NCBI RefSeq assembly: GCF_009789575.1
Contig: NZ_CP046908.1
Location: forward strand, 2,397,001 to 2,461,000
Source: Stappia indica
GTDB lineage: Bacteria; Pseudomonadota; Alphaproteobacteria; Rhizobiales; Stappiaceae
Reading direction: 5' to 3'
DNA: 64,000 nt
The translations under genes were made by a program, and so were the position numbers. Under the pieces are notes generated by a model, which was given only the letters and a program-made list of their open reading frames with translations, searched no databases and was not told the DNA's origin. Positions 32,356-60,075 of the stretch are shown piece after piece (within the stretch, counting starts at the first letter, position 1; every line of letters starts with the position of its first letter).

Positions 32356-33006
32356 ATGCGTCTTCTTGCCGAACAGCTTGCCTGCGACCGCGGAGGCCGC
32401 AGGGTCTTCGCAGGCCTCTCGCTCGCGGTCTCGAGCGGCGAGGCGATGGCCGTCACCGGACCGAACGGCGTCGGCAAGTCGAGCCTGCTGCGCGTGCTGG
32501 CGGGCCTGGTGCCGCCGGCCGAGGGCACGGTCCGCGTCGAGGGCGGCGAGGCGGAGGCCGAGCCTTTCGAGCATTGCCACTATGCCGGCCATCTCGACGC
32601 GGTGAAGCCGGCCCTCTCGGTCATCGAGAACCTTGCCTTCTGGCGCGACTTCCTGGCCGGGCTGCCGGCGCTCGGCGGTCTTTCCCCGCGTTCTCCGCAG
32701 GCGGCGCTCGACCTGCTCGGCATCGGCCACACCGCCGACCTGCCGGCCGCCTATCTGTCCGCCGGCCAGCGCCGCCGTCTGGCGCTCGCCCGGCTGCTGA
32801 CCATCCCGCGTCCCGTCTGGCTGCTCGACGAGCCGACCGCCGCGCTCGACGCCGCCTCGGAGGCGCAGCTGACCGAGCTGATGCGCGACCATGTCGCCGG
32901 CGGCGGCATCATTCTCGCCGCCACCCACCAGGCGCTCGGCCTCGACGGCTTGCTGAGGCTGCATCTCGAGGCTCCCGAGCCCGCCGACACGGAAATCCCG
33001 GCATGA
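32356..33006 (+). CDS. ccmA: Haem exporter ATP-binding protein CcmA
   Basis: A 216-residue ABC ATPase of the cytochrome c maturation system I. Walker A is GPNGVGKSS (35-43); the signature is [14 protein letters not shown] and Walker [12 protein letters not shown]; the switch His is in ATHQAL. With CcmB, CcmC and CcmD it releases haem-loaded CcmE from the membrane. The ATG at 32356 was chosen because homologues start MRLLAEQL; an upstream ATG at 32257 adds 33 non-conserved residues. Its stop overlaps the ccmB start (ATGA), so the two are translationally coupled. Confidence 0.95.
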
Positions 33007-33692
33007 CCGCGGCCGACCGCCCGCGCGGCTGGGTCGCCGCCCTGTTCTCCCGCGAGCTGCGCCTGTCGCTGCGCTCGGGCGGCGGCGCGCTGATCGGCGT
33101 GCTGTTCTTCCTGGCCGTCGTCACGGTCATTCCCTTCGGCGTCGGACCGGATCTCAACCTGCTCGCCCGCATCGGCCCGGCCGTGCTGTGGATCGGCGCC
33201 CTGCTCGCCACGCTGCTCGGCCTCGACCGCCTGTTCCAGGCCGACCGCGACGACGGATCGCTCGACCTCGTGCTGATGGCCGGCCGGCCGCTGGAGATCG
33301 TCGTGCTGATCAAGTGCCTCGCTCATTGGGCCGGCACCTGCCTGCCGCTGGTCGCCGCCGCCCCGGTTCTGGCGATCTTCCTCAACCTGGAGCCGCTGGC
33401 CATCGGCGCGGTGACGCTGACGCTGGCCGTCGGCACCCCGGCCCTGACGCTGATCGGCGCGGTCGGCGCGGCGCTGACCGTCAGCCTTCGCCGCGGCGGG
33501 CTGCTGCTGGCCGTGCTCGTGGTGCCCTTCTCGATACCCGTGCTGATCTTCGGGGTCAGCGCGTCCGGGGCGGCGGTGAGCGACCCGGCCCCCTTCCTGG
33601 CGCCGTTTCTCTATCTCTGCGCGGTCACGCTGATCACCGCCGTGGTCGGCCCCTTTGCCGCTGCGGCAGGCCTGCGCTTCTCCGCCGACTGA
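33003..33692 (+). CDS. ccmB: Haem exporter membrane protein CcmB
   Basis: A 229-residue inner-membrane protein with six predicted helices, beginning with the cytoplasmic amphipathic region [18 protein letters not shown] typical of Ccm[21 protein letters not shown] is the conserved loop that contacts CcmA. Four-base overlap with ccmA. ccmC follows after 66 bp. Confidence 0.95.
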
Positions 33693-33723
33693 GGGACACG
33701 CAAAGGTGTCGCATTCTCCCCGA

Positions 33724-33752
33724 TTGAAAGCAGGCTCCAGCGACACTAGAAC
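33724..33752 (+). promoter_or_regulatory. Possible internal sigma-70-type promoter before ccmC
   Basis: TTGAAA (33724-33729) and TAGAAC (33747-33752) are spaced by 17 bases in the ccmB-ccmC gap. Transcription would begin at or very near the ccmC ATG at 33759, giving a nearly leaderless message, so the match may be chance. Confidence 0.3.
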
Positions 33753-33758
33753 AGTTCC

Positions 33759-34517
33759 ATGGGATTGATGGATCTTGCCAACCCGACGCGCTTCATGTCG
33801 TTCTCCGGCCGGCTTCTGCCGTGGCTGGGAGGCGCCTGCGCGCTCGCCTTCGCCGCCGGGCTCTACATGACCTTCTTCGTCGCGCCCGACGACTACCAAC
33901 AGGGTGCCACGGTCAAGATCATGTTCCTGCATGTGCCGGCCGCCTGGCTCGCCATGATGTGCTACTCGATCATGGCGATCTCCGCGCTCGGCACCCTGGT
34001 GTGGAAGCATCCGCTCGCCGACGTCTCGGCACGCGCCGCCGCCCCCATCGGCGCGGCCTTCACCTTCCTGTCGCTGGTCACCGGCTCGCTCTGGGGCAAG
34101 CCGATGTGGGGCACTTACTGGGTCTGGGACGCGCGCCTGACCTCGGTCCTCGTGCTCTTCGTCATGTATCTGGGGCTGATCGCCCTGTGGCGGACGATGG
34201 AAGACCCGATCCGCGCCGGCAAGGCGGCGGCGGTCCTCACCCTGGTGGGCGCGGTCAACCTGCCGATCATCAAGTTCTCCGTCGACTGGTGGAACACGCT
34301 GCACCAGCCGGCCAGCGTGATGCGGCTCGACGGCCCGACCATCCATCCGACGATCCTCTGGCCGCTGCTGACGATGGCGCTCGCCTTCACCCTTCTGTTC
34401 CTCGTCATGCACCTGATGGCGATGCGCAACGAGATCCTGCGCCGCCGCCTGCGCACGCTGCAGCTCGGCGCCGCCAGCACCCGCGTCGCCGCGGCACGAC
34501 CACAGGCCGCCGAATGA
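33759..34517 (+). CDS. ccmC: Haem transporter CcmC
   Basis: A 252-residue haem-handling protein with six membrane helices and the tryptophan-rich periplasmic segment MWGTYWVWDARLTS (about 112-125), the WWD-type haem-binding motif. Haem-ligand histidines lie in FLHVPAAW and WWNTLHQPAS. CcmC loads haem onto CcmE. An internal ATG at 33768 (MDLANPTRF) is an alternative start. Its stop overlaps the ccmD start. Confidence 0.96.
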   Translation: MGLMDLANPTRFMSFSGRLLPWLGGACALAFAAGLYMTFFVAPDDYQQGATVKIMFLHVPAAWLAMMCYSIMAISALGTLVWKHPLADVSARAAAPIGAAFTFLSLVTGSLWGKPMWGTYWVWDARLTSVLVLFVMYLGLIALWRTMEDPIRAGKAAAVLTLVGAVNLPIIKFSVDWWNTLHQPASVMRLDGPTIHPTILWPLLTMALAFTLLFLVMHLMAMRNEILRRRLRTLQLGAASTRVAAARPQAAE

Positions 34518-34708
34518 CCGAGCTTCTCGACCTCGGAGCCCATGCGGGCTTCATCCTCGCCTGCTACGCGATCACGCTGGCGACCATCGTCGGCCTGTTC
34601 GCCTGGCTCGCCGCCGACCGCAGGACCCTCACCGCCGCACTGGCGAAGCTGGAGGCGGACGGCGTGCGCCGCCGTTCGAACGCGACTGCCTCCGGAGAGC
34701 GCGGATGA
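34514..34708 (+). CDS. ccmD: Haem exporter protein CcmD
   Basis: A 64-residue single-pass membrane protein; the helix is about 10-32 (AGFILACYAITLATIVGLFA), with a basic C-terminal cytoplasmic tail. Its length and place between ccmC and ccmG identify it. CcmD is needed to release holo-CcmE from the CcmABCD complex. It overlaps ccmC by four bases and ccmG by four bases. Confidence 0.93.
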   Translation: MTELLDLGAHAGFILACYAITLATIVGLFAWLAADRRTLTAALAKLEADGVRRRSNATASGERG

Positions 34709-35337
34709 GCACCGAACTGGAAACCAGGACCGAAACCGGCGGCCAGCCGGACGGCGCCCCCCCGCGCCGCCGCGTGCCCTTGCTGGCCTTGCTGCCGCTC
34801 ATCGTCTTCGGCCTGCTCGCCGTGCTGTTCCTGATCCAGCTGCTCAGCGGCAAGGACACCTCGCAGGTTCCCTCCGCCCTGATCGACAGGCCCGCACCCG
34901 AATTCTCGCTGCCGCCCGTGCCCGAGCTGGTCGACGGCGGCGCGCCCGTCCCCGGCGTTTCCCGCGCCGATCTCGTCGGCAAGGTCAGCATCGTCAACAT
35001 CTTCGCCTCCTGGTGCGTGCCCTGCCGCCAGGAGCATCCGCTGCTGGAGGAGCTTGCCCGCTCCGGCCAGGCGCAGATGATCGGCATCAACTACAAGGAC
35101 AAGGCGGAGAACGCCCGCCGCTTCCTCGGCACGCTCGGCAACCCCTATTCGCGCGTCGGCGCCGACGAGAACGGCCGCGCCGCCATCGAGTGGGGCGTCT
35201 ACGGCGTGCCCGAGACCTTCATCGTCGATGCCGCCGGCACCATCCGCTTCAAGTTCATCGGCCCGCTGTCGCCGGAAACCTACCGCGACGTCTTCCTGCC
35301 GCAGCTGGAAGACGTCCTGGCGAGCCCGAACGGCTGA
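34705..35337 (+). CDS. ccmG: Thiol:disulfide interchange protein CcmG/DsbE
   Basis: A 210-residue membrane-anchored thioredoxin that reduces apocytochrome c thiols for haem ligation. A single N-terminal helix (about 25-48) leads to the periplasmic domain with active site SWCVPCRQEHP (Cys104, Cys107) and the cis-proline segment YGVPETFIVD. The gene overlaps ccmD (ATGA-type). The operon lacks ccmE, ccmF and ccmH here, which must be elsewhere, as is normal in this group. Confidence 0.95.
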   Translation: MSTELETRTETGGQPDGAPPRRRVPLLALLPLIVFGLLAVLFLIQLLSGKDTSQVPSALIDRPAPEFSLPPVPELVDGGAPVPGVSRADLVGKVSIVNIFASWCVPCRQEHPLLEELARSGQAQMIGINYKDKAENARRFLGTLGNPYSRVGADENGRAAIEWGVYGVPETFIVDAAGTIRFKFIGPLSPETYRDVFLPQLEDVLASPNG

Positions 35338-35476
35338 CCCCGGAACCGCCGTTCCCGATTGCGTGATTTCAAGCCCTCGTGAGTGGCCTTCGCCTGCGAC
35401 CCAACCTATTGTCGGGGCTCTCGGGCTGCGGCATCCGCTGCGGTCGCCGCTTTCACAGGAATGGTCAGATCCCCCG

Positions 35477-36199
35477 ATGCGGGCACCGGCACATCTCATT
35501 CTGTCCGTCTTTCTGGCGCTGGCTGCGGCGCTCCCGGCAGCGCAGGCCGGCGAGCAGCGCGCCGTCGTCGAGCTGTTCACCAGCCAGGGCTGCTCCTCCT
35601 GCCCGCCGGCCGACAAGCTGATGGGCGAGCTCGCCCGCCGCGGCGATCTCGTCACCCTCACCTATCCCGTCGACTACTGGGATTATCTCGGCTGGCGCGA
35701 CACGCTCGCCTCGCCCGATTACGGCGCCCGCCAGCGCGCCTATGCGGAGGCGCGCGGAGATCGCGCCGTCTATACGCCGCAGATCGTCGTCAACGGCAGC
35801 GGCCATGTGGTCGGCAGCGACCGCAGCGCCCTGCAGGCCGAGCTGGACAAGCAGGCGCCTCTGCCGGTCACCGTCGATCTCGAGATGGCCGGCGATCTTC
35901 TCGAAGTCCATGTCGACGGCGCGTTGCCCGCTTCGGTGAAGATGGCGACGATCTATTTCGTCTTCGTCTCCCGCCCGGTCGAGGTGGAGATCGACCGCGG
36001 CGAGAACAGCGGCCGGAGCGTCACCTATCACCATGTGGTGCGCGGCATCCGCGCCATCGGCATGTGGGAAGGCGGGCCCGCCAGCTACCGCCTGCCGGCC
36101 AGCGAGATGCGCAAGATGAAGGCCGGCCATTGCGCCGTGCTGGTCCAGGTGGAGCCGGGCGGCCGGCCGGGCATGATCCTCGGCGCGGCGATGCAGTGA
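35477..36199 (+). CDS. DUF1223 family secreted thioredoxin-like protein
   Basis: A 240-residue precursor with a signal peptide (residues 1-25, ending AAQAG). The mature N terminus reads AVVELFTSQGCSSCPPADKL, with the CxxC pair at Cys39 and Cys42, then VDYWDYLGWRD and YTPQIVVNGSGHVVGSD. This is the DUF1223 family, a thioredoxin-like fold, biochemically uncharacterised, often close to acnA and ccm genes in Hyphomicrobiales. A redox role is an inference from the CxxC. The ATG at 35477 gives the signal peptide directly. Confidence 0.9.
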   Translation: MRAPAHLILSVFLALAAALPAAQAGEQRAVVELFTSQGCSSCPPADKLMGELARRGDLVTLTYPVDYWDYLGWRDTLASPDYGARQRAYAEARGDRAVYTPQIVVNGSGHVVGSDRSALQAELDKQAPLPVTVDLEMAGDLLEVHVDGALPASVKMATIYFVFVSRPVEVEIDRGENSGRSVTYHHVVRGIRAIGMWEGGPASYRLPASEMRKMKAGHCAVLVQVEPGGRPGMILGAAMQ

Positions 36200-36297
36200 A
36201 GAGGCCCGGCAGGTTTGTCTTGAGGGCAAAAAAGGGTTAGGGCTTTGCCCGCAATCGGGGCCCTCGTGTCCCGGACCACTTGCGAGGCTGCCCTTCC

Positions 36298-37185
36298 ATG
36301 ACCCTTCGCCTGCGCGTTGCGCTCGCCAGCATCTTCGTCGGCCTCGCCGTCCTCGCGCTGAAATACCTGGCCTATCGCTGGACCGGGTCGGTGGCGCTGT
36401 ATTCCGACGCGCTGGAATCGATCGTCAACGTCGCCTCCGCGATCGCCGCCTTCCTCGCCGTCTGGTTCGCCGCCAAGCCCGCCGACAGCAACCATCCTTA
36501 CGGCCACCACAAGGCCGAATACATGGCCGCCGTCCTCGTCGGCGTGCTGATCGTGCTGGCGGCCCTGTCCATCGGCCACGAGGCCTGGAAGAACTATCTC
36601 GACCCGCAGCCGGTCGATTTCACGCCGGAAGGCCTGGGGGTCAACGCGCTTGCCACCGTGCTCAACGGCATCTGGGCAACCGTCCTGGTGCGCATCGGCC
36701 GCGGCCATCGCTCCATGGCGCTGGTCGCCGACGGCAAGCATCTCTACACCGACGTCTTCTCCTCGCTCGGCGTGCTGGCCGGCGTCATCCTGGTGATGCT
36801 GACCGGCATTCGCGAGCTCGATTCGCTGCTGGCCGGCCTCGTCGCGCTCAACATCCTGTGGTCGGGCTGGGGGTTGATGAAGGAATCGCTCGGCGGGCTG
36901 ATGGACGAGGCGGTCGCCCCGGCGCTGCAGGACCGCATCCGCGAGGTCATTTCCACCTCCGCGGACGGGGCCATCGAGGCGCACGACCTGCGCACCCGCT
37001 CGGCCGGCCACGTCGTCTTCGTGGATTTCCACCTGGTCGTGCCGGCCGACATGACGGTCGAGCGCGCCCACGACATCTGCGACCGCATCGAGGCGGCGAT
37101 CTCCAAGGAGGTGCCGGGCGCGCGCACGACGATCCATGTCGAGCCCGAGCACAAGGCCAAGCATACCGGCATCGTGGTGATCTGA
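36298..37185 (+). CDS. Cation diffusion facilitator family metal exporter
   Basis: A 295-residue CDF transporter that exports divalent metals (Zn, Fe, Mn, Co or Ni) in exchange for protons. Six helices are seen; metal-site segments YSDALESIVNVAS (helix 2) and HLYTDVFSSLGVLAG (helix 5) match the D-x-x-x-D-type site, and HPYGHHKAEYMAA is the usual loop. The cytoplasmic C-terminal domain (about 205-295) has VVFVDFHLVVPADMTVERAH. Metal preference is not clear from these residues. The ATG at 36298 is the first plausible start. It ends 29 bp before the kinase remnant. Confidence 0.93.
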   Translation: MTLRLRVALASIFVGLAVLALKYLAYRWTGSVALYSDALESIVNVASAIAAFLAVWFAAKPADSNHPYGHHKAEYMAAVLVGVLIVLAALSIGHEAWKNYLDPQPVDFTPEGLGVNALATVLNGIWATVLVRIGRGHRSMALVADGKHLYTDVFSSLGVLAGVILVMLTGIRELDSLLAGLVALNILWSGWGLMKESLGGLMDEAVAPALQDRIREVISTSADGAIEAHDLRTRSAGHVVFVDFHLVVPADMTVERAHDICDRIEAAISKEVPGARTTIHVEPEHKAKHTGIVVI

Positions 37186-37213
37186 AGCTTCTCGCGCCGG
37201 GACGGCAGCCGGA

Positions 37214-37321
37214 TCAGCCCGCCCGCCCCGCAATCGCCCGGTCGAGGGCGGAGAACAGCGCCGCCGGCAGCACCGGCTTCTCCAGCAGCAGGTCGAAGCC
37301 CGACGGCCCCTCGCGCTCCTC
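37214..37321 (-). pseudogene. 3'-end remnant of a hybrid histidine kinase gene (repeat copy A)
   Basis: On the minus strand this fragment reads EEREGPSGFDLLLEKPVLPA followed by ALFSALDRAIAGRAG and TGA, the end of a receiver domain. It aligns to the 3' end of the intact kinase (38369-38459) without gaps over 91 bp, with 8 base differences, none of which changes the 28 shared codons apart from the stop (TGA versus TAG). The similarity stops abruptly near 37305-37321, where AT-rich sequence begins. It is either the left-over end of the resident gene or a remnant of a paralogue. Confidence 0.8.
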
Positions 37322-38368
37322 CTAAGGTTGAGTTGAGACCCGGAGTCTGTGCACTATACGAGCAGCTATCATCGGCTGCGGTAGACTTCTTTCGTGCAGG
37401 GGGCGGGAATGGAGAATTATAGCCAATACCGCCGAAATAACATCTCCCAGGTGTGAAGAATGATTGGAATCTTTGAAAAGTCCGCCTTTAAATCGAAGTT
37501 GTTTGCATGTTTCTTGGCTTTTCATTCATGCTCCGCAACCGGAAGAACATCGGCTGCGGATGATGTTGAATTTAAGTTGCAATTCCTAAACGAAGAAGAA
37601 GAAGAAGTAAATCCGAGATTGGATTTGAGTTACATACTTAGCAAGTGCCCTGATGACAGCAACGGATCCGTATTCGTTCGGCTTCGTAGTGGGCGATCGT
37701 TCGCAGTTCCTGTGGATCTTATATCGATTTTCAAACAAGAGATTGTAGAGCCGGCGGAGATTCAAGCGAATAACGTCGCACCCCCCGGATGTAAAGATAA
37801 CCCGTTTTACGTGAAGCTAATCAATTTAGTAATTAAGAGCCGGGAATTTGGTGGCTATACGGTAATATTATCGGATTCCCCAGGGGTATTAATGCTTTAC
37901 AACTCAACAGCCAGAGGATTCGAGCGCCTCTGCAGAAAATACCCCTCGAACAAGAAAATAATGAAAGGGATTACTGCGTGTTACGGGCCGGGAGAGGGGA
38001 ATAGATCGGCAGCTTATTATAGGACAGACCCCGTTGTTCATGGTTCAAATTTAAAGCCAATCTATTGGAGTTGCCCTGCTGCTATGCATAAGGATGGTGC
38101 AAGGCTCTACTGTACTGTCTGGTACATGTATGACGAGTATTTTGGTGTTCGCTATAGATATCATGAGACCAATATAACGCCAGATAAATTCATAAAATTC
38201 GACCGATACATTCAGTCGCAAGTTAGGTCCATAAGATACCCCGAAATCGACATGACGAAACCACGAGATTAAAATCCTAGATTACACGTGCGGAACTAGC
38301 AGAACTATGCCCCGGCGGATCATTGCCGGAAACGGACGCCGTTTCCGGCACAATTATGAGTCCACGAC
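37322..38368. mobile_element. AT-rich foreign insert with orphan gene and solo element end
   Basis: About 1.05 kb of visibly AT-richer DNA inside an otherwise GC-rich window. It starts where kinase remnant A breaks off and ends at the CTAG that forms the stop codon of the intact kinase gene. It holds one open reading frame (37460-38272) and, at the right, a terminal repeat (38317-38368) shared with the MITE at 59783-60051. No transposase or integrase is present. Confidence 0.65.
37460..38272 (+). CDS. Orphan hypothetical protein, probably exported
   Basis: A 270-residue protein I do not recognise. The N terminus (KSKLFACFLAFHSCSATGRT, then SAADD) resembles a weak signal peptide. The rest has no membrane helix, is mixed alpha/beta with an acidic patch (NEEEEEVNPR) and seven Cys after residue 50, and carries RLRSGRSFAVPVDLIS, RTDPVVHGSNLKPIYWSCP and YDEYFGVRYRYHETN. 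Codon use is AT-rich and unlike all neighbours. The ATG at 37460 follows CAGGTGTGAAGA. The gene fills the AT-rich insert. A cargo gene of unknown selective value is the most I can say. Confidence 0.65.
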   Translation: MIGIFEKSAFKSKLFACFLAFHSCSATGRTSAADDVEFKLQFLNEEEEEVNPRLDLSYILSKCPDDSNGSVFVRLRSGRSFAVPVDLISIFKQEIVEPAEIQANNVAPPGCKDNPFYVKLINLVIKSREFGGYTVILSDSPGVLMLYNSTARGFERLCRKYPSNKKIMKGITACYGPGEGNRSAAYYRTDPVVHGSNLKPIYWSCPAAMHKDGARLYCTVWYMYDEYFGVRYRYHETNITPDKFIKFDRYIQSQVRSIRYPEIDMTKPRD

Positions 38369-38372
38369 CTAG
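38317..38372 (-). repeat. Solo terminal repeat of the CTAG-flanked element
   Basis: Reading from the CTAG at 38369-38372 inward on the minus strand, GTCGTGGACTCATAATTGTG and the next 25 bases match the right end of the element at 60018-60047. An 11-bp hairpin (GCCGGAAACGG / CCGTTTCCGGC, 38325-38349) lies inside it. The partner end is not found at the other side of the insert. Confidence 0.75.
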
Positions 38373-39592
38373 CCCGCCCGCCCGGCGATCGCCCGGTCGA
38401 GGGCAGAGAACAGCGCCGCCGGCAGCACCGGCTTTTCCAGCAGGAGATCGAAGCCCGACAGGTCTTCCCTTTCGCGCGCAGAGAGCGTCGCGGCGGTGAT
38501 GCCCAGCACCGGGAGGCGGGCGGCGGCGTCCCCCCGACCACGGATTTCCGCCAGCGTCTCGATCCCGTCCATGCCGGGCATGTTGATGTCGAGCAGCACC
38601 GCATCCACCGGCTCGCGCGCCAGCAGCTCCAGCGCCTCGCGCCCACCGCTCGCCAGCAGCGTGTCGCAGCCGAAGGCGCCGAGCATCGCCTCCATCATCT
38701 TGCGGTTCGCCTCGTTGTCGTCGACCACCAGCAGCCGCCTGCGCACCAGGCAGCGGATGTTCGGCCTCTCGCGGCGCCCGCCCGGCTTGCCGTTCCCTCG
38801 CACCGCGCCGCCGCCCTCGAACGGGCGCAGCGGCAGGCGCAGGGAAAACCGGCTTCCCGCCGGCGAGCTCTCGGCCAGCTCCAGCCGCCCGCCCTGGGCG
38901 ACCGCCAGCCGGCTGGCGCTCCACAGGCCGAGCCCGCTGCCCGTCGCCGTATCGCGGGCGAGTTCCCCGCGCCGCCGGGCGCGAAACAGCAGCCCGCGTT
39001 CCTCGCCCGGAATGCCGATCCCGGTATCGGCAAGGCTCAGCTCGAGCTCGGGCGCCCCCGCGCCGCCCCCCTCGCGCGCCCCCTCGCCGCCGACACGGGC
39101 GGTGAGCGTCAGCCCGCCCTCGGCCGTGTATTTCAGCGCATTGTCGTAGAGAACGGAGAGGATGCGGCGCAGCGCCAGCGGATCGGCGACCCGGTAATTC
39201 GCCAGCCCGGCGGCGATGTCGCGCCGCTCGGCCAGCCCGCGCACCCGCGCCTCGGCGGAAAACAGCTCGCATACGGACAGGATGTCGGTGGCGACGTCGC
39301 AGGCGTCCTCGTCCTCCGGCGTGGTGCCGGCGAGCCCCTGCGTCGTCATCGACAGCAGCGCGTCGATGGCCATTTCCAGGGTCCTCAGCGCCGAGGCCTG
39401 GCGCTGGGTGGTGGGATCGGCGCCGATCATCTCGGCCGCTGTGCGCATGGCCGCCAGCGGCGTGCGCAGGTCGTGCAGCAGCACCGCCACCCGGTCGACG
39501 GAAGCCGCCTCCTGCGCCGCCTCCCTGTCACCGGCGCCGGCTTGCGGACCGGCTGTGGGCGCCTCGCCCTCCGGTGCGATCGTTCCGACCAT
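38369..39592 (-). CDS. Soluble hybrid histidine kinase / response regulator
   Basis: A 407-residue protein with a dimerisation/phosphoacceptor domain (LLHDLRTPLAAM, His40), an HATPase_c domain (about 105-255: N box LYDNALKYTAEGG, G1 LADTGIGIPG, G2 GSGLGLWSAS) and a C-terminal receiver (about 285-405: DDNEANRKMM, phospho-Asp about 335 in LLDINMPGMDG, Lys in EKPVLP). There is no membrane segment and no PAS, HAMP or GAF domain, so the input is not apparent. The stop codon TAG lies in the CTAG at the edge of the foreign insert. It is divergent from an AEC permease gene by 127 bp. Confidence 0.88.
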   Translation of the reverse strand: MVGTIAPEGEAPTAGPQAGAGDREAAQEAASVDRVAVLLHDLRTPLAAMRTAAEMIGADPTTQRQASALRTLEMAIDALLSMTTQGLAGTTPEDEDACDVATDILSVCELFSAEARVRGLAERRDIAAGLANYRVADPLALRRILSVLYDNALKYTAEGGLTLTARVGGEGAREGGGAGAPELELSLADTGIGIPGEERGLLFRARRRGELARDTATGSGLGLWSASRLAVAQGGRLELAESSPAGSRFSLRLPLRPFEGGGAVRGNGKPGGRRERPNIRCLVRRRLLVVDDNEANRKMMEAMLGAFGCDTLLASGGREALELLAREPVDAVLLDINMPGMDGIETLAEIRGRGDAAARLPVLGITAATLSAREREDLSGFDLLLEKPVLPAALFSALDRAIAGRAG

Positions 39593-39719
39593 GGTGCAGA
39601 ATCTCCTCGCGTCCCCTTGCCTGCCATGGTGCCCTACCTGCCGGGCAAATCAAGCGGGGCATGGCGGGCATGCCCGACTGCGGCTTGTCGGCGCACCCCG
39701 GGCGTGCGAAAGAGCCTTC

Positions 39720-40673
39720 ATGGTCGACCAGATCCTCTCCATCGTTCTACCCGTCTTCGCGCTGATCGGCATCGGCTATGCCGCCGCCCGTTTCGGCATT
39801 CTCGATGCGAAGATCGGCGATGCCCTCGGCCAGTTCATCTATGTGATCGCCATCCCCGTGCTGATCTTCCGCACCCTGGCGACGAGTTCGCTCGGCGGCG
39901 TCTCGCCCTGGGGTTTCTGGATCTCCTATTTCACCGGCGTCGCCGTGGTCTGGGCGCTCGGCACGGTGATCGTCCGGCACGTGTTCGGGCGCGAGGCGCG
40001 CGCCGGGGTGATCGCCGGCATCAGCGCCGGCTTCGCCAACACGGTTCTGGTCGGCATCCCCCTGATCACCGCGATCTACGGCGACGAGGGGCTGGTACCG
40101 CTCTTCGTGCTGATCTCCATCCACCTGCCGGTGCTGACCGTGGTCTGCGCCGTCCTGATGGAGCGGGCCGCCGTGCTCGACGGCACCCAGGAGGCGAAGC
40201 CCTTGGGCGAGCTGCTGGTCGGCATCGCCCGCAATCTCGCCACCAATCCGATCGTCATCGGCATCGTCGCCGGCGGCATCTGGCGCGTGACCGGCCTGCC
40301 GATCGAAGGCGTCTTCGCCGACGTGCTCGCGCGCATTGCCGGTTCGGCGATCCCGGTCGCCCTGTTCTCGCTCGGCATGAGTATCGTCGCCTACGGCATC
40401 CGCGGCAATCTGGTGCCCGGCCTGCTGCTCAGCGTGCTGAAGATCGGCGTGATGCCGGCGGTGGTCTACCTGATGGCGGCGCATGTGGTGCACCTGCCGC
40501 CCCTGTGGGTTTCGGTGGCGACGCTCACGGCCGCCTGCCCGACCGGCATCAACGCCTTCCTCTTCGCCAACCGCTACGGCACCGGCCATGCCATGTCGGC
40601 GAACTCGATCACCATGACGACCGGCCTTGCGGTCGTCTCCACCGTGCTGTGGATGGCCTTCCTCGGGCTGTAA
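39720..40673 (+). CDS. AEC (auxin efflux carrier) family transporter
   Basis: A 317-residue ten-helix permease of the AEC family. The N-terminal half begins VLPVFALIGIGYAAARFGIL, and the family signature AGFANTVLVGIPLITAIYGD lies at the fourth helix; the second half repeats the topology (ACPTGINAFLFANRYGTGHA). Bacterial AEC proteins export small organic acids such as malonate or malate; the substrate here is not known. The ATG at 39720 opens at the first helix. It is divergent from the hybrid kinase, which may regulate it, but nothing in the sequence proves that. Confidence 0.92.
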   Translation: MVDQILSIVLPVFALIGIGYAAARFGILDAKIGDALGQFIYVIAIPVLIFRTLATSSLGGVSPWGFWISYFTGVAVVWALGTVIVRHVFGREARAGVIAGISAGFANTVLVGIPLITAIYGDEGLVPLFVLISIHLPVLTVVCAVLMERAAVLDGTQEAKPLGELLVGIARNLATNPIVIGIVAGGIWRVTGLPIEGVFADVLARIAGSAIPVALFSLGMSIVAYGIRGNLVPGLLLSVLKIGVMPAVVYLMAAHVVHLPPLWVSVATLTAACPTGINAFLFANRYGTGHAMSANSITMTTGLAVVSTVLWMAFLGL

Positions 40674-40691
40674 GGATCAGGGCTGCAGGGA

Positions 40692-41579
40692 TCAGGGCTC
40701 CAGCCCGACCAGCCGCCGGATCTCTTCCGGCGTCGCGCCCTTTTTCCGCAGCTCGGCCAGCGCGGTATCGCCCTGCGACTTCGACAGCTTGCGCCCGTCC
40801 TCGCCCATCACCAGCCGGTGGTGGCGATAGAGCGGCTCGGGCAGGCCGAGCAGCGCCTGCAGCAGCCGGTGCACCGCCGTTGCCTCATAAAGGTCGCGCC
40901 CGCGCACCACATGGGTGATGCCCTGCAACGCGTCGTCGACCACCACGGACAGGTGATAGCTCGTCGGCGTGTCCTTGCGCGCCAGCACCACATCGCCCCA
41001 GCGCGCCGGATCGGCGGCGATGGGTGTGGGCGCCTGTCGTCCCTCGTCGTCTTGCAACTCCTGCCAGGACAGCGGCGCCTTGCAGCGGGCGAGCGCAGCG
41101 CGCATGTCGAGCCGCAGCGCGAACGGCGCCCCTTGCGCTTCGCGCGCCGCGATCTCCTGCGGGCTCAAGACCGCCTCGTCGCCGGGATAGAGCGGCGCCC
41201 CGTCCGGGTCGCACGGCCAGGGCTGCCCGCGCGTCTCTGCCAGCTGCGCCACCGCGCGCGCGATCTCGCCGCGGGTCAGGAAGGCCTTGCGCACCAGCCC
41301 CATGGCGGAAAGACGGTCAAGCGCCGCCGCATACTCGTTGAAATGCTCCGACTGCCGGCGCACCGGGCGCTCCCAGTCGAGCCCGAGCCAGGCGAGATCC
41401 TCCAGCACCCCGGCCTCGAGTTCCGGCGTGCAGCGGGTCCGGTCGATGTCCTCGATGCGGATCAGCAGCCGCCCACCGAGCGCCCTCGCCATGCGCGCAT
41501 TCAGCAGCGCCGACAGGGCATGGCCCAGATGCAGGCGGCCGTTCGGCGAGGGGGCGAAGCGGAAGGCAGGTCGGCTCAT
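40692..41579 (-). CDS. gluQ: Glutamyl-Q tRNA(Asp) synthetase
   Basis: A 295-residue truncated GluRS paralogue that glutamylates queuosine in tRNA(Asp). It keeps the catalytic core: FAPSPNGRLHLGHALSALLN (HIGH-type motif), IEDIDRTRCTPE, and GRKLSKSQGD (KLSKS), and has no anticodon-binding domain, as expected. The zinc-ligand Cys residues of the E. coli YadB type are mostly absent, as in many alphaproteobacterial forms. The ATG at 41579 is followed by SRPAFRFAPSPNG. It is convergent with the AEC gene, 18 bp apart. A YhhQ-type queuosine-precursor transporter is encoded at 55601-56275. Confidence 0.93.
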   Translation of the reverse strand: MSRPAFRFAPSPNGRLHLGHALSALLNARMARALGGRLLIRIEDIDRTRCTPELEAGVLEDLAWLGLDWERPVRRQSEHFNEYAAALDRLSAMGLVRKAFLTRGEIARAVAQLAETRGQPWPCDPDGAPLYPGDEAVLSPQEIAAREAQGAPFALRLDMRAALARCKAPLSWQELQDDEGRQAPTPIAADPARWGDVVLARKDTPTSYHLSVVVDDALQGITHVVRGRDLYEATAVHRLLQALLGLPEPLYRHHRLVMGEDGRKLSKSQGDTALAELRKKGATPEEIRRLVGLEP

Positions 41580-41676
41580 GGCGTGATCTTGTTGGCGATC
41601 CCCGCCGCCGCGTCAATCTTCCCGCGAGGGCGTACGAGGCGCGCGCCCGAACCACGCCGCAACGTCTTTGCCTCCC

Positions 41677-41724
41677 CGGTCCCGGGTCGCGCTCCGCTTG
41701 CCCGGGAAGACGCTAGAGGAAGGC
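41677..41724. repeat. Interspersed intergenic repeat R4, copy 2 (inverted)
   Basis: Reverse complement of the R4 unit at 28970-29030 (GGTCCCGGGTCGC ... GCCCGGGAAGACGC), including the CCCGGG-based hairpin. Confidence 0.8.
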
Positions 41725-41743
41725 TGGAGCGACAAAACACCTG

Positions 41744-41892
41744 CCGAGGGTGCCAATGGTTCCCGGCTCTGCGCTGGCGCGCGGCCGGGATGACATCCTG
41801 AGAGAGAGGCAGCGCCTCGCCCCACCCTCCGCCGTCACCCCGGCCGCAGGCGAAGCCGGAGAGCCGGGGCCTATTGGCTCCCGGAGCGGAGG
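41744..41892. repeat. Interspersed intergenic repeat R2, copy 2
   Basis: Matches 7324-7468 in the same orientation, with the shared GAAGCCGGAGAGCCGGGGCC and CTATTGGCT blocks. Confidence 0.8.
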
Positions 41893-41921
41893 CGAGGGCA
41901 CACCGACGCACACCCCACGCC

Positions 41922-42842
41922 TCAGCGGTCCTTGTCGTCCATGTCGCTGCAGGTCTTGAGCGAAATGCCGTAGGGCAGCTTCGTGGTCGCGTCGCCGCAG
42001 GCCCCGACCATGCGCGCCCCGTCGAGGCCGCTGGCGCCCGAAAGATCGGCCCCCACCAGCCGCGTGCGCCGCATCAAGGCCCCGTCGAGCCGCGCGCCCG
42101 ACAGGTTGGCGCCGGTCAGGTCGGCGCTGGAAAAATGCGCGCCGGTCAGATCCGCATCGCGGAAATCCGCCCCCACCGCGCTCACCCGGTCGAAATCCGC
42201 ATTGGGCAGCCGCGCGCCGGCGAATGTCGCCGACATCAGGTTGGCGCGTTCCAGGTTGACGCCCTCCATCTTCGCCTTGCTGAAATCGGCACCCGACGCG
42301 TTGGCACGGATCAGCAGCGCCTGGCGCAGGTCCGCCCCTTGCAGGCCGGCGCCCACCAGATTGGTCTCGATCATGTCGGCATTGCGCAGGTCCGCGCCCG
42401 CAAGGCTCGCCTCGGTCAGGATCGCCTTTTCCAGATCGACGCCGCGCATCGATCCCTTGGACAGGTCGGCGCCGGTCAGGTCCGTGCGCTCCAGCTCGGT
42501 GCGCCGCAGGTCCGCGCCCGCAAGGTTCGCGCCGATGAGCGAAGCCTCCTTGAGGTCCGTCTCGCGCAGGTTCGCCCCTGCCAGTTGCGCCCTCTCGAGG
42601 GTCAACCCGCGCAGCTCGGACAGGCGCAAATCGCAGCCTGCGCATTCGCCGCTGCGCTTCAACCGCTCCAGATCGCTTTCGGAAAGCGCAGGACCGGTCG
42701 CCGCCAGCAGCGCGATCATTGCCGCCGCTGCGGCACCCGCTTTCGCCTGGCCCTTCCCGCGCGCGAAACTGGCCCAGCGCGCCTGGCGCGCAAAACTGGC
42801 CCGGCGCGCCTGGCGCGCAAAACTGGCACCGAATATCGTCAT
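41922..42842 (-). CDS. Pentapeptide-repeat protein
   Basis: A 306-residue protein. From about residue 70 to 290 it is a long run of pentapeptide repeats, A(D/N)Lxx pattern (GANLR, GADLR, TGADL, GADFR), which fold as a right-handed quadrilateral beta-helix. Near residues 38-55 a hydrophobic stretch (AGAAAAAMIALLAATGPALS) acts as a signal peptide or anchor. The start at the ATG at 42842 is supported by GGGAGAGG. The N-terminal region consists of a 9-residue tandem repeat (ASFARQARR, ASFARQARW, ASFARG), encoded by a 27-bp DNA repeat, which is odd ahead of a signal peptide. Two Cys (ECAGCD) precede the repeats. Function unknown. Confidence 0.85.
   Translation of the reverse strand: MTIFGASFARQARRASFARQARWASFARGKGQAKAGAAAAAMIALLAATGPALSESDLERLKRSGECAGCDLRLSELRGLTLERAQLAGANLRETDLKEASLIGANLAGADLRRTELERTDLTGADLSKGSMRGVDLEKAILTEASLAGADLRNADMIETNLVGAGLQGADLRQALLIRANASGADFSKAKMEGVNLERANLMSATFAGARLPNADFDRVSAVGADFRDADLTGAHFSSADLTGANLSGARLDGALMRRTRLVGADLSGASGLDGARMVGACGDATTKLPYGISLKTCSDMDDKDR
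42766..42828. repeat. 27-bp in-frame tandem repeat in the pentapeptide-repeat gene
   Basis: About 2.4 copies of AAACTGGCCC(A/G)GCGCGCCTG plus GCGCGCA, period 27 bp. The repeat is in frame, so gain or loss of a unit would change the N-terminal region by nine residues without shifting frame. Confidence 0.85.
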
Positions 42843-43043
42843 TACGAACCTCTCCCGTCGGCCCGGCGCCTCTCCCTGTGTCACAGTTAGGGCTGTGGAG
42901 CGGGCAATTTAAGGGCGCGGCGGCGCAATGGAGCGAGAATTCGCACCCTTGCCCGAACGGGCCTTGCGGCATTGTGGAAAACGACTGTTAATACCCTGTG
43001 GAAAATCCGGAGGGAGCCGGCACGAAGAGAATTGGGGGGAGAC

Positions 43044-58616: not shown

Positions 58617-59786
58617 ATGCCCGCTCTCGACTTTCAGACCCTTTATATCCTGATCTTCCTCAACTCGCTGGCCGTGACCGCGGTCTGGGCGGGGTTTGCC
58701 TGGATGTACCGCCCGCACACCGCCGCCCGGCACTGGCTCGCCGGTACGCTTCTGTCGCTGGTGGGCGGGCTCGTGCTGGCGACCCAGGGCAATGCGGGCG
58801 CGCTGGTGCCCGCCGTCCTCGGCAACACGATCATCCTTTTCGGTTTCGCGCAGTTCTGGATCGGCTTGCGGCGCTTTTCCCGGCAAGACGGCGGACAGGT
58901 GCTCGCCGTTGCCTTTTCCCTCGCCGCCGCGGTCGTGATGATCGCCCTGCACGACAGCGGCCGCGGCCGCGCCATCGTCTATGCCTCGGGCCAGTCCGCC
59001 GTGATGCTGGCCTGCCTTGTCCAGCTGCTGCGCAACCGGGTCTCGGGCATCGGCGCGGTGATTGCCGCCACCGCCTTCGCCGTGGCGCTTGCCGGCCAGA
59101 CCCTCATCGTCGCCTCGAACGGGGCGGTGCTCGCGGGCGCGCTGGACTACGAGGTCTATTACGCGCTCGCCTCCTATGCCCTGCTCTGCACGGTGTTCAG
59201 CGCCACCGTCTGGAACCTCGGCTTTGCGCTGATGGCCGTCGACAGTCTGCACCGGCAACTGAAGAGCCTTTCGGAAACCGACGCGCTGACGGGCCTTGCC
59301 AACCGCCGGGCCTTCGCGGCCCGCATGGACCGGTTGCAGCAACAGGCGAACGAGCGCCCCTGGTGCCTGGTGCTGATCGATCTCAACGACTTCAAGCCCC
59401 TCAACGACCGCTTCGGCCATCTGGCCGGCGACCGGGCGCTGGCGCATTTCGCGCAAGTTCTGCTCTCCTGCGCAAGGCCCGGCGACCTGGTCGCGCGTCT
59501 CGGCGGCGACGAGTTCGCCCTGCTGCTTCCCGCTGCGCCCCTTGCCGAGGCCGGCACGCTGGCCCAGGCGATCCGCCGGAAGGTGGCCTCGTCGCCGCTG
59601 GCCGTGGACGGCGAGACCGTGCCGATGTCCGCCGCCATCGGCCTTGCGGGGTCCGGCGAGGAGCCCGCCAGCGGCGACCGGCTGTTCTCCCTCGCCGACG
59701 CGCGGCTTTACGAGGACAAGACGGCGTCGAAGGCGCAGCGCCCGCGCTCGGCTCCGCCGCGGCTCCAGCTCGCCACGCAGGGCTAG
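58617..59786 (+). CDS. Membrane GGDEF protein (probable diguanylate cyclase)
   Basis: A 389-residue protein with about six to seven membrane helices (residues 5-205) and a C-terminal GGDEF domain (about 225-375). The active-site motif RLGGDEFALLL is at about 294-304, and LIDLNDFKPLNDRFGH gives the substrate site, so it should make cyclic di-GMP. RPGD, five residues before GGDEF, is the product-inhibition I-site. No EAL domain. The membrane half is an MHYT-like or 7TM sensor that I cannot name. The TAG stop lies in the CTAG at the edge of the MITE-like element. Confidence 0.92.
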   Translation: MPALDFQTLYILIFLNSLAVTAVWAGFAWMYRPHTAARHWLAGTLLSLVGGLVLATQGNAGALVPAVLGNTIILFGFAQFWIGLRRFSRQDGGQVLAVAFSLAAAVVMIALHDSGRGRAIVYASGQSAVMLACLVQLLRNRVSGIGAVIAATAFAVALAGQTLIVASNGAVLAGALDYEVYYALASYALLCTVFSATVWNLGFALMAVDSLHRQLKSLSETDALTGLANRRAFAARMDRLQQQANERPWCLVLIDLNDFKPLNDRFGHLAGDRALAHFAQVLLSCARPGDLVARLGGDEFALLLPAAPLAEAGTLAQAIRRKVASSPLAVDGETVPMSAAIGLAGSGEEPASGDRLFSLADARLYEDKTASKAQRPRSAPPRLQLATQG

Positions 59787-60051
59787 GTCGTGAACTCATA
59801 ATTCTGACGAGAAACGGTATGCCCGAACCCGATCGGATACAAGGAGCAAGGCCGCAGGAAACCATTAGGTTTTCAAGGGCTTGCGACGCTGTTGCCGGCG
59901 GGTTCCGGCATACCCGAAGGGCGCCGTTCGAGCTTCGATCTGCGGCGTCGGATCGCTCGGCCGGGGGACTGCCCCGGCCATCGCGCTCCTCCTAGCATAT
60001 CATTGCCCGACCGGACGCCGTTTCCGGCACAATTATGAGTCCACGACCTAG
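59783..60051. mobile_element. CTAG-flanked MITE-like element (~265 bp)
   Basis: Terminal inverted repeats of about 31 bp: left end 59787-59817 (GTCGTGAACTCATAATTCTG...) and right end 60018-60047, its inverted match with five or six differences. Both ends abut CTAG (59783-59786 and 60048-60051), consistent with a four-base target duplication as made by IS5-group transposases (YTAR). No transposase fits inside. The interior lacks a gene. A solo right end occurs at 38317-38372. Confidence 0.65.
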
Positions 60052-60075
60052 GTCGTGGACTCATAATTGTGCCGG
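60024..60075. repeat. 52-bp perfect palindrome
   Basis: Positions 60024-60049 are the exact reverse complement of 60050-60075, centred on CCTAGG. The left arm is the right end of the MITE-like element; the right arm is a second copy of the same end in opposite orientation and encodes the last residues (HNYESTT) of the TPR protein gene. Confidence 0.95.

Follow-up and report, generated by a model that had tools for sequence, protein, structure and literature searches.

In the genome of Stappia indica (G000, a single 5.1-Mb contig) the last 91 bp of a gene for a hybrid histidine kinase/receiver protein are present twice in direct orientation, and about 1 kb of AT-rich DNA with an orphan gene lies between the two copies. 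The locus was studied within a stretch of 64,000 nucleotides (G000:C1:2397001-2461000), referred to here as the window. We read the insert as a cargo island that is attached to the stop codon of the kinase gene through a single end of an IS630-like inverted-repeat element with TA as its target and that ends in ordinary DNA on its other side, a reading to which we give about even chances. Table 1 gives the coordinates of the features within the window, while islands and element ends elsewhere are named by their position in the genome.

The kinase-side boundary of the insert consists of the outer base of a solo element end, which is followed by TA. This right edge aligns over 53-67 bases and with 88-96% identity to the seven other element copies examined, and the alignment ends at about position 38372. 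At least 35 other places in the genome match the stretch 38311-38372 after scoring of 40 of 113 candidates, some of them being partner ends of one element. The complete element has a length of about 264 bp and carries inverted repeats at both ends. Since the element starts with G, its insertion next to a target TA always yields TAG, and the TAG of the kinase gene is such a stop codon. Because the stop is rebuilt in this way, the host gene is not damaged.

Terminal inverted repeats were not found on the insert itself: its left end is dissimilar to its own right end, both in G000 (shuffle P 0.59) and in G012, which is Stappia indica SBBC 49 (shuffle P 0.28). Within the genus comparison set of 14 Stappia genomes (G000 and 13 others) a search with an exact 18-mer and a 161-bp query found the left end elsewhere in G012 only. 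TA is present on both edges of the insert, but the two tail copies form its flanks and there is no single split target. In G012, TA also directly precedes GGTTGAG; the left junctions of the two genomes differ by a few bases, while the right junctions are alike. Neither the list of open reading frames (ORFs) nor Pfam revealed a transposase within the insert, and Rfam gave no match over 37200-38480.

The element itself is abundant in G000. A total of 55 end matches comprises 25 pairs, with a distance of 245-247 bp in 24 of them and of 116 bp in one, as well as five solo ends, at 247887, 1970329, 2435352 (the kinase insert), 2457051 and 2951503. Fewer end matches were counted in the relatives G005 (20), G002 (10), G012 (9), G008 (9) and G003 (8), and none in the remaining eight genomes of the genus. 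For 18 distinct copies out of the 25 pairs the insertion sites were analysed. TA flanks both sides in 16 of them, the target is CTAG in 11 and fits YTAR in 16. In 15 of the 18 copies the target TA lies inside a stop codon, counted as such when an open frame of at least 100 codons ended at this TA, whether or not a gene was annotated. As a control the CTAG sites of the window were inspected. This tetranucleotide is rare (12 occurrences compared to about 185 expected from base composition) and most of its sites are stop codons: nine of the 12 lie in stop codons as defined above, or four of six after removal of the six sites within the insert or element copies. Targeting of stop codons beyond a preference for CTAG was therefore rejected, and the frequent insertion at stop codons is attributed to this preference. 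Two unusual arrangements were seen among the copies. The solo end at 60051-60068 of the window (2457051) directly abuts a complete element (Table 1), one having inserted at the TA of the other's edge, and G003 carries a TA-flanked element of 53 bp (G003:C49:462809-462861) which extends scarcely beyond its two terminal repeats.

Two of the other solo ends in G000 also border islands. The one at 247887 marks an edge of a 1.84-kb DUF1254/DUF1214 island (G000:C1:246065-247904) between two convergent genes, and non-repeat DNA forms the other edge. The empty site in G012 reads TTCTAGCC and is shared by both genes, its CTAG being made up of their overlapping stop codons. In the filled site of G000, TTCTA is followed by ACGC at one edge and CGACC by TAGCC at the other, which is an exact duplication of TA. 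None of the 13 other genus genomes matches across this island. The solo end at 2951503 borders a low-GC (guanine plus cytosine) island of about 0.6 kb (G000:C1, about 2950939-2951520) at the TAG stop codon of a luciferase-like monooxygenase gene. It carries an ORF for a Cys-rich protein of 105 amino acids, secreted by its look, and is absent from G012, G005, G008, G003 and G002, all of which match both flanks. The right end of the kinase insert resembles the right ends of both these islands (0 of 2000 shuffles each), whereas the left ends of the islands are unlike the right ends (shuffle P 0.25-0.82, with an estimated left edge for the island at 2951503).

Several observations weigh against a capture by one element end. 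The left edge of the island at 2951503 is only an estimate. The left ends of the kinase and the DUF1254 island are weakly alike (P 0.04), and a degenerate left end may be common to the islands. No direct repeat of a gene end was detected at the other two islands in comparisons of 6-kb stretches; the tail duplication is thus peculiar to the kinase locus. Among the remaining solo ends of G000, the one at 1970329 has neither TA nor a stop codon beside it and may be a fragment, and the one at 2457051 is nested against a full copy. Nine further unpaired or odd ends are present in other genus genomes, of which three, besides the end of the G012 kinase insert, lie at a TAG stop; none of the nine was shown to bound an island. 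One end, on C34 of G005, was tested for an empty site, and the region is continuous in G000 and G012. Solo ends without an island imply that some of them are only decayed copies. Furthermore, neither a transposase nor an autonomous element with these ends was found in a search of the 14 genus genomes with the 18-mer only, and no pair of ends more than about 0.5 kb apart was listed in these genomes, where no search was aimed at transposase genes. Finally, the native stop codon of the kinase gene, TGA, contains no TA, so that a change of TGA to TAA or TAG, or an imprecise joint, must be assumed.

The duplicated tail was already recognized in an initial annotation of the sequence, which noted eight substitutions between its two copies. 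Our repeat analysis found it at the same place: copies A and B, 1155 bp apart, are the longest direct repeat listed for 36500-39500 (89 nt, 93% identity), with a BLAST E value of 1e-33 in a 7-kb self-comparison. The annotation had called all differences silent in the shared codons, and this holds: six are synonymous third-position changes, and the other two fall in the stop codon, where copy A has TGA and copy B has TAG. The homology continues for about 18 bp past 37304, to about 37322, and there the encoded residues differ (EEREGPSG compared to AREREDLSG). The AT-rich DNA with an orphan gene described between the tails was also found: the GC content is 44-51% in 500-bp windows mostly inside the insert and 66-77% in windows clear of it (33000-43000), and the insert holds one sizeable ORF of 270 codons. 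The gap between the end of the CDF gene and copy A is 28 bp.

Table 1. Features of the kinase locus and of the associated element (positions within the window)
Feature	Position	Strand	Basis
CDF cation-efflux gene, left neighbour	36280..37185	+	Pfam Cation_efflux 1.3e-39, ZT_dimer; adjoins kinase in relatives
Copy A, detached native 3′ end of the kinase gene, including its native stop TGA	37214..37304	-	Repeat comparison; spacer resembles empty sites
TA at left junction	37323..37324	.	Sequence
Low-GC insert of about 1045 bp; left end GGTTGAGTTGAGACCC..., single copy, without match to right end	37325..38369	+	
Orphan gene, 270 amino acids, lipoprotein-like	37460..38272	+	ORF
Right end of insert, solo end of the inverted-repeat element of about 264 bp (like a miniature inverted-repeat transposable element, MITE)	38311..38369	+	
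Hairpin close inside the end, perfect arms of 12 bp	38324..38350	.	
18-bp terminal repeat GGTCGTGGACTCATAATT, exact	38352..38369	-	
Kinase stop TAG, target TA plus first base G of the element	38369..38371	-	
Copy B, 3′ end of the intact kinase gene	38369..38459	-	Repeat comparison
Hybrid histidine kinase/receiver gene, 407 amino acids, intact	38369..39592	-	ORF, domain search
Complete element copy	59786..60048	.	
Terminal repeat of the element, GGTCGTGRACTCATAATT			

The insert is present in one of the 13 other genus genomes, G012, at the same place and with both tails. As the initial annotation had expected, there are strains with an empty site: in G005, G008, G003 and G002 a single tail adjoins the CDF gene, and the spacer between the two, about 23-28 bp long, resembles that of copy A. 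These empty sites, together with the native stop codon and spacer retained by copy A, support the view that the 1 kb was inserted. The other eight genomes carry a more diverged kinase gene at the same place. A tblastn search found one kinase at each of the 14 genus loci, plus the extra tails in G000 and G012, and on these grounds the proposal that copy A is what remains of a mostly deleted paralogue was rejected. In aligned blocks over about 36 kb the identity to the window is 93-96% for G005, 91-92% for the main blocks of G012, 89-92% for G008 and 80-92% for G003. The insert is thus absent from the closest relative and present in a more distant one, which leaves two histories: an old insert with later loss from G005 and G008, or a transfer between strains.

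The tails were compared over the 87 columns after the stop codon, the stop itself being excluded. Copies A and B differ at six of these sites in G000 and at only one in G012. Between the two genomes there are five differences for A and four for B. The tail of G005 differs at five sites from copy A of G000, at five from copy B of G000 and at one from copy B of G012, and a match of the empty-site tail to copy A, which had been predicted, was thus not observed. Even though A is untranslated, all five differences between the two A copies fall at the third position of a codon, and one of them alters a residue (D/E). Under free drift about 14 differences would be expected at 0.16 per site, our own estimate of the neutral rate from the differences between the B copies (Poisson P 0.006, a rough test). 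The low number and the third-position pattern suggest that copy A has exchanged sequence with working tails, either with its own copy B or with empty-site alleles of other strains.

How might one element end have brought about this structure? The joint on the kinase side would be the transposon-type end at the stop codon, as in the two other islands. The second, non-transposon side would have been joined away from the first cut, about 108 bp inside the kinase gene. Since the joints lie apart, the tail between them is present twice, A being the native outer end and B the working end. This could have happened if the free end was joined inside the kinase gene on a sister copy or an incoming copy, or if a tandem duplication of the tail came first, with the element entering later at the junction. 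Afterwards the two tails may have kept exchanging sequence, mutually or with empty-site alleles, which would explain third-position changes in the non-coding copy A, and recombination between the tails would remove the insert cleanly. As a more general model, a TA-targeting transposase may attach a foreign fragment to a CTAG stop codon through just one terminal repeat, and the host may seal the free end opposite the cut or at a distance; we consider this model doubtful at present. If it holds, islands are expected to have a constant end, a random opposite end and a restored TAG, in some cases along with a long duplication of host DNA like that of the kinase tail, and single genes could be gained at gene ends at low cost. 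If one-ended islands recur, stop codons could serve as entry points into GC-rich genomes for single foreign genes, with no harm to the host gene, and screening for solo ends would directly pinpoint such acquisitions. The kinase locus would be a concrete case of a host gene that stays functional thanks to the duplication of its end, which at the same time provides a clean exit by recombination.

The best of the alternatives, which comes close to the view of the initial annotation and which we nevertheless hold to be unlikely, is a one-sided exchange between two strains by homology-facilitated illegitimate recombination. In this case a donor with the cargo beside its kinase gene would have recombined through a homologous joint in the kinase gene and an illegitimate joint in the resident tail, leaving copy A behind. 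Such a process is documented in other bacteria (PMC3240628, PMC5361080), and it would account for the continuity of copy A with the resident spacer and stop codon. The six silent differences between A and B in G000 fit two functional alleles. In addition, the insert-proximal 18 bp of copy A resemble those of copy A in G012 (two differences), and the same stretch of copy B in G000 is identical to G005. However, the divergence between A and B that fits this process in G000 (6/87) does not do so in G012 (1/87), where the copies are nearly identical. The initial claim that the two ends come from diverged alleles is for this reason not required, and a tail duplicated around a foreign insert need imply neither two alleles nor a lost paralogue. 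One-sided recombination would also turn the left joint at TA next to GGTTGAG in both genomes into a coincidence, and on its own it leaves the transposon-type end at the stop codon unexplained, unless an earlier insertion in the donor is assumed. The near-identity of A and B in G012 together with the TA at both edges favours the two within-genome versions of capture by one element end.

It is less probable still that the solo end and the cargo have independent histories. A complete 264-bp element at the kinase stop codon would then have lost its left part, the AT-rich gene would have arrived separately, and the solo end would be a fossil without a role for the cargo. Indeed, solo ends without a demonstrated island exist, and the remnant of about 62 bp at the kinase insert is longer than those at the two other islands (26 and 22-24 bp). 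On the other hand, exactly one TA duplication encloses the island at 247887, one of whose edges is a solo end and the other non-repeat DNA, and a decayed copy would hardly keep the left target base intact next to foreign DNA.

An integrative element with the 3′ end of the kinase gene as attachment site, which displaced the native tail as copy A and supplied copy B, would produce the layout observed here, as integrative elements with replacement ends leave a displaced native end, a restored gene and the element in between; it is nevertheless very improbable and was rejected, since the one sizeable ORF of the insert has no match to a site-specific recombinase, at least the 5′ edge of copy B, which in G000 matches G005 exactly, was not supplied by an element, the right edge is a transposon-type end found all over the genome, and the genus loci examined showed no other kind of element at this site.

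The element described here shares the duplicated TA target, the preference for CTAG and short inverted repeats with IS630/Tc1-mariner elements and their MITEs. For this group, TA duplication and CTAG preference are covered in PMC2170065, the latter also by the titles of Tenzen 1990 and 1991 among its references. The same paper reports that the ISY100 transposase gave mostly one-end insertions in vitro. In our data TA duplication was found in 16 of the 18 paired copies and at the island at 247887, and inverted repeats at both ends are a property of the 264-bp element but not of the insert. The insert differs from IS630/Tc1-mariner elements in having one such end and no transposase, and an autonomous partner was not identified. 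Mobile insertion cassettes carry inverted repeats at both ends. The insert resembles them in its passenger gene, its lack of a transposase and its IS-like end, but it has one repeat instead of two.

One constant and one variable end together with mobilization of adjacent DNA are also known from the one-ended transposition of IS91-type elements, for example IS801 of Pseudomonas syringae (PMC3189936). According to the same paper, IS801 products end at a tetranucleotide resembling the left end of IS801, whereas here TA is duplicated (247887) and full copies have inverted repeats. As for IS91/ISCR elements, the right ends of our islands are alike and the left ends unlike the right ones, one left edge being an estimate; in contrast to IS91/ISCR elements, which give no target duplication, TA lies on both sides of the island at 247887 and of 16 of the 18 paired copies. 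MITEPsy1 of P. syringae is likewise a short inverted-repeat element with a CTAG/YTAA target, but PMC3189936 describes it with a 4-nt duplication, while the 2-nt TA fits 16 of the 18 copies here. In the displacement of type VI effector modules in Vibrio cholerae by homology-facilitated illegitimate recombination, a leftover piece of the resident gene region lies beside the added DNA, as at the kinase locus (PMC5361080); here, however, a transposon-type repeat terminates the new DNA, and the host gene has stayed whole. Judged by the titles listed, our searches of an open-licence library gave no paper on such Stappia elements or on one-ended islands at TA targets.

The orphan protein was compared with several collections. 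No significant match was obtained in Pfam (best E value 0.15, below the curated cut-off), NCBIfam, PADLOC or PHROGs, and plasmid collections, phage collections and viral contigs gave no match. The best hit among PDB sequences was tau (E value 1e-4), with no stretch passing alone. A structure model was poor (mean predicted local distance difference test score, pLDDT, 44) and was not used for a fold search. The copy in G012 shows 76% identity, and remote relatives are present in two other genera of the family, in G031 (25% identity) and in G456 (profile match). A profile of the orphan matches two of 397 genomes drawn from the order, namely G000 and G012, and four of 87 genomes of the family (G000, G012, G031 and G456), one row of the profile being itself from G031. 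The G012 copy has an LLSC motif near its N-terminus and the G031 homologue has LAGC, both of which we take to be lipoboxes of the lipoprotein type. The gene in G031 is not located beside a kinase gene; its neighbours are presumably an EamA-like transporter ORF on one side and a rhodanese-like ORF on the other.

Comparison of G000 with G012 shows the orphan gene to be a mosaic whose divergence changes near codon 147. Synonymous (dS) and nonsynonymous (dN) divergence are 0.68 and 0.23 in the first half and 0.24 and 0.03 in the second, and the halves differ at both kinds of sites (Fisher P 0.001 and 2e-12, calculated from rounded counts). The dN value is lower than dS in both halves, which indicates that the gene is under purifying selection. 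For comparison, dS is 0.24 for the CDF gene and 0.31 for the kinase gene. Judged from these sequence divergences, the second half of the orphan gene is about as old as the split between G000 and G012, and the first half has the appearance of a more diverged allele that came in by recombination.

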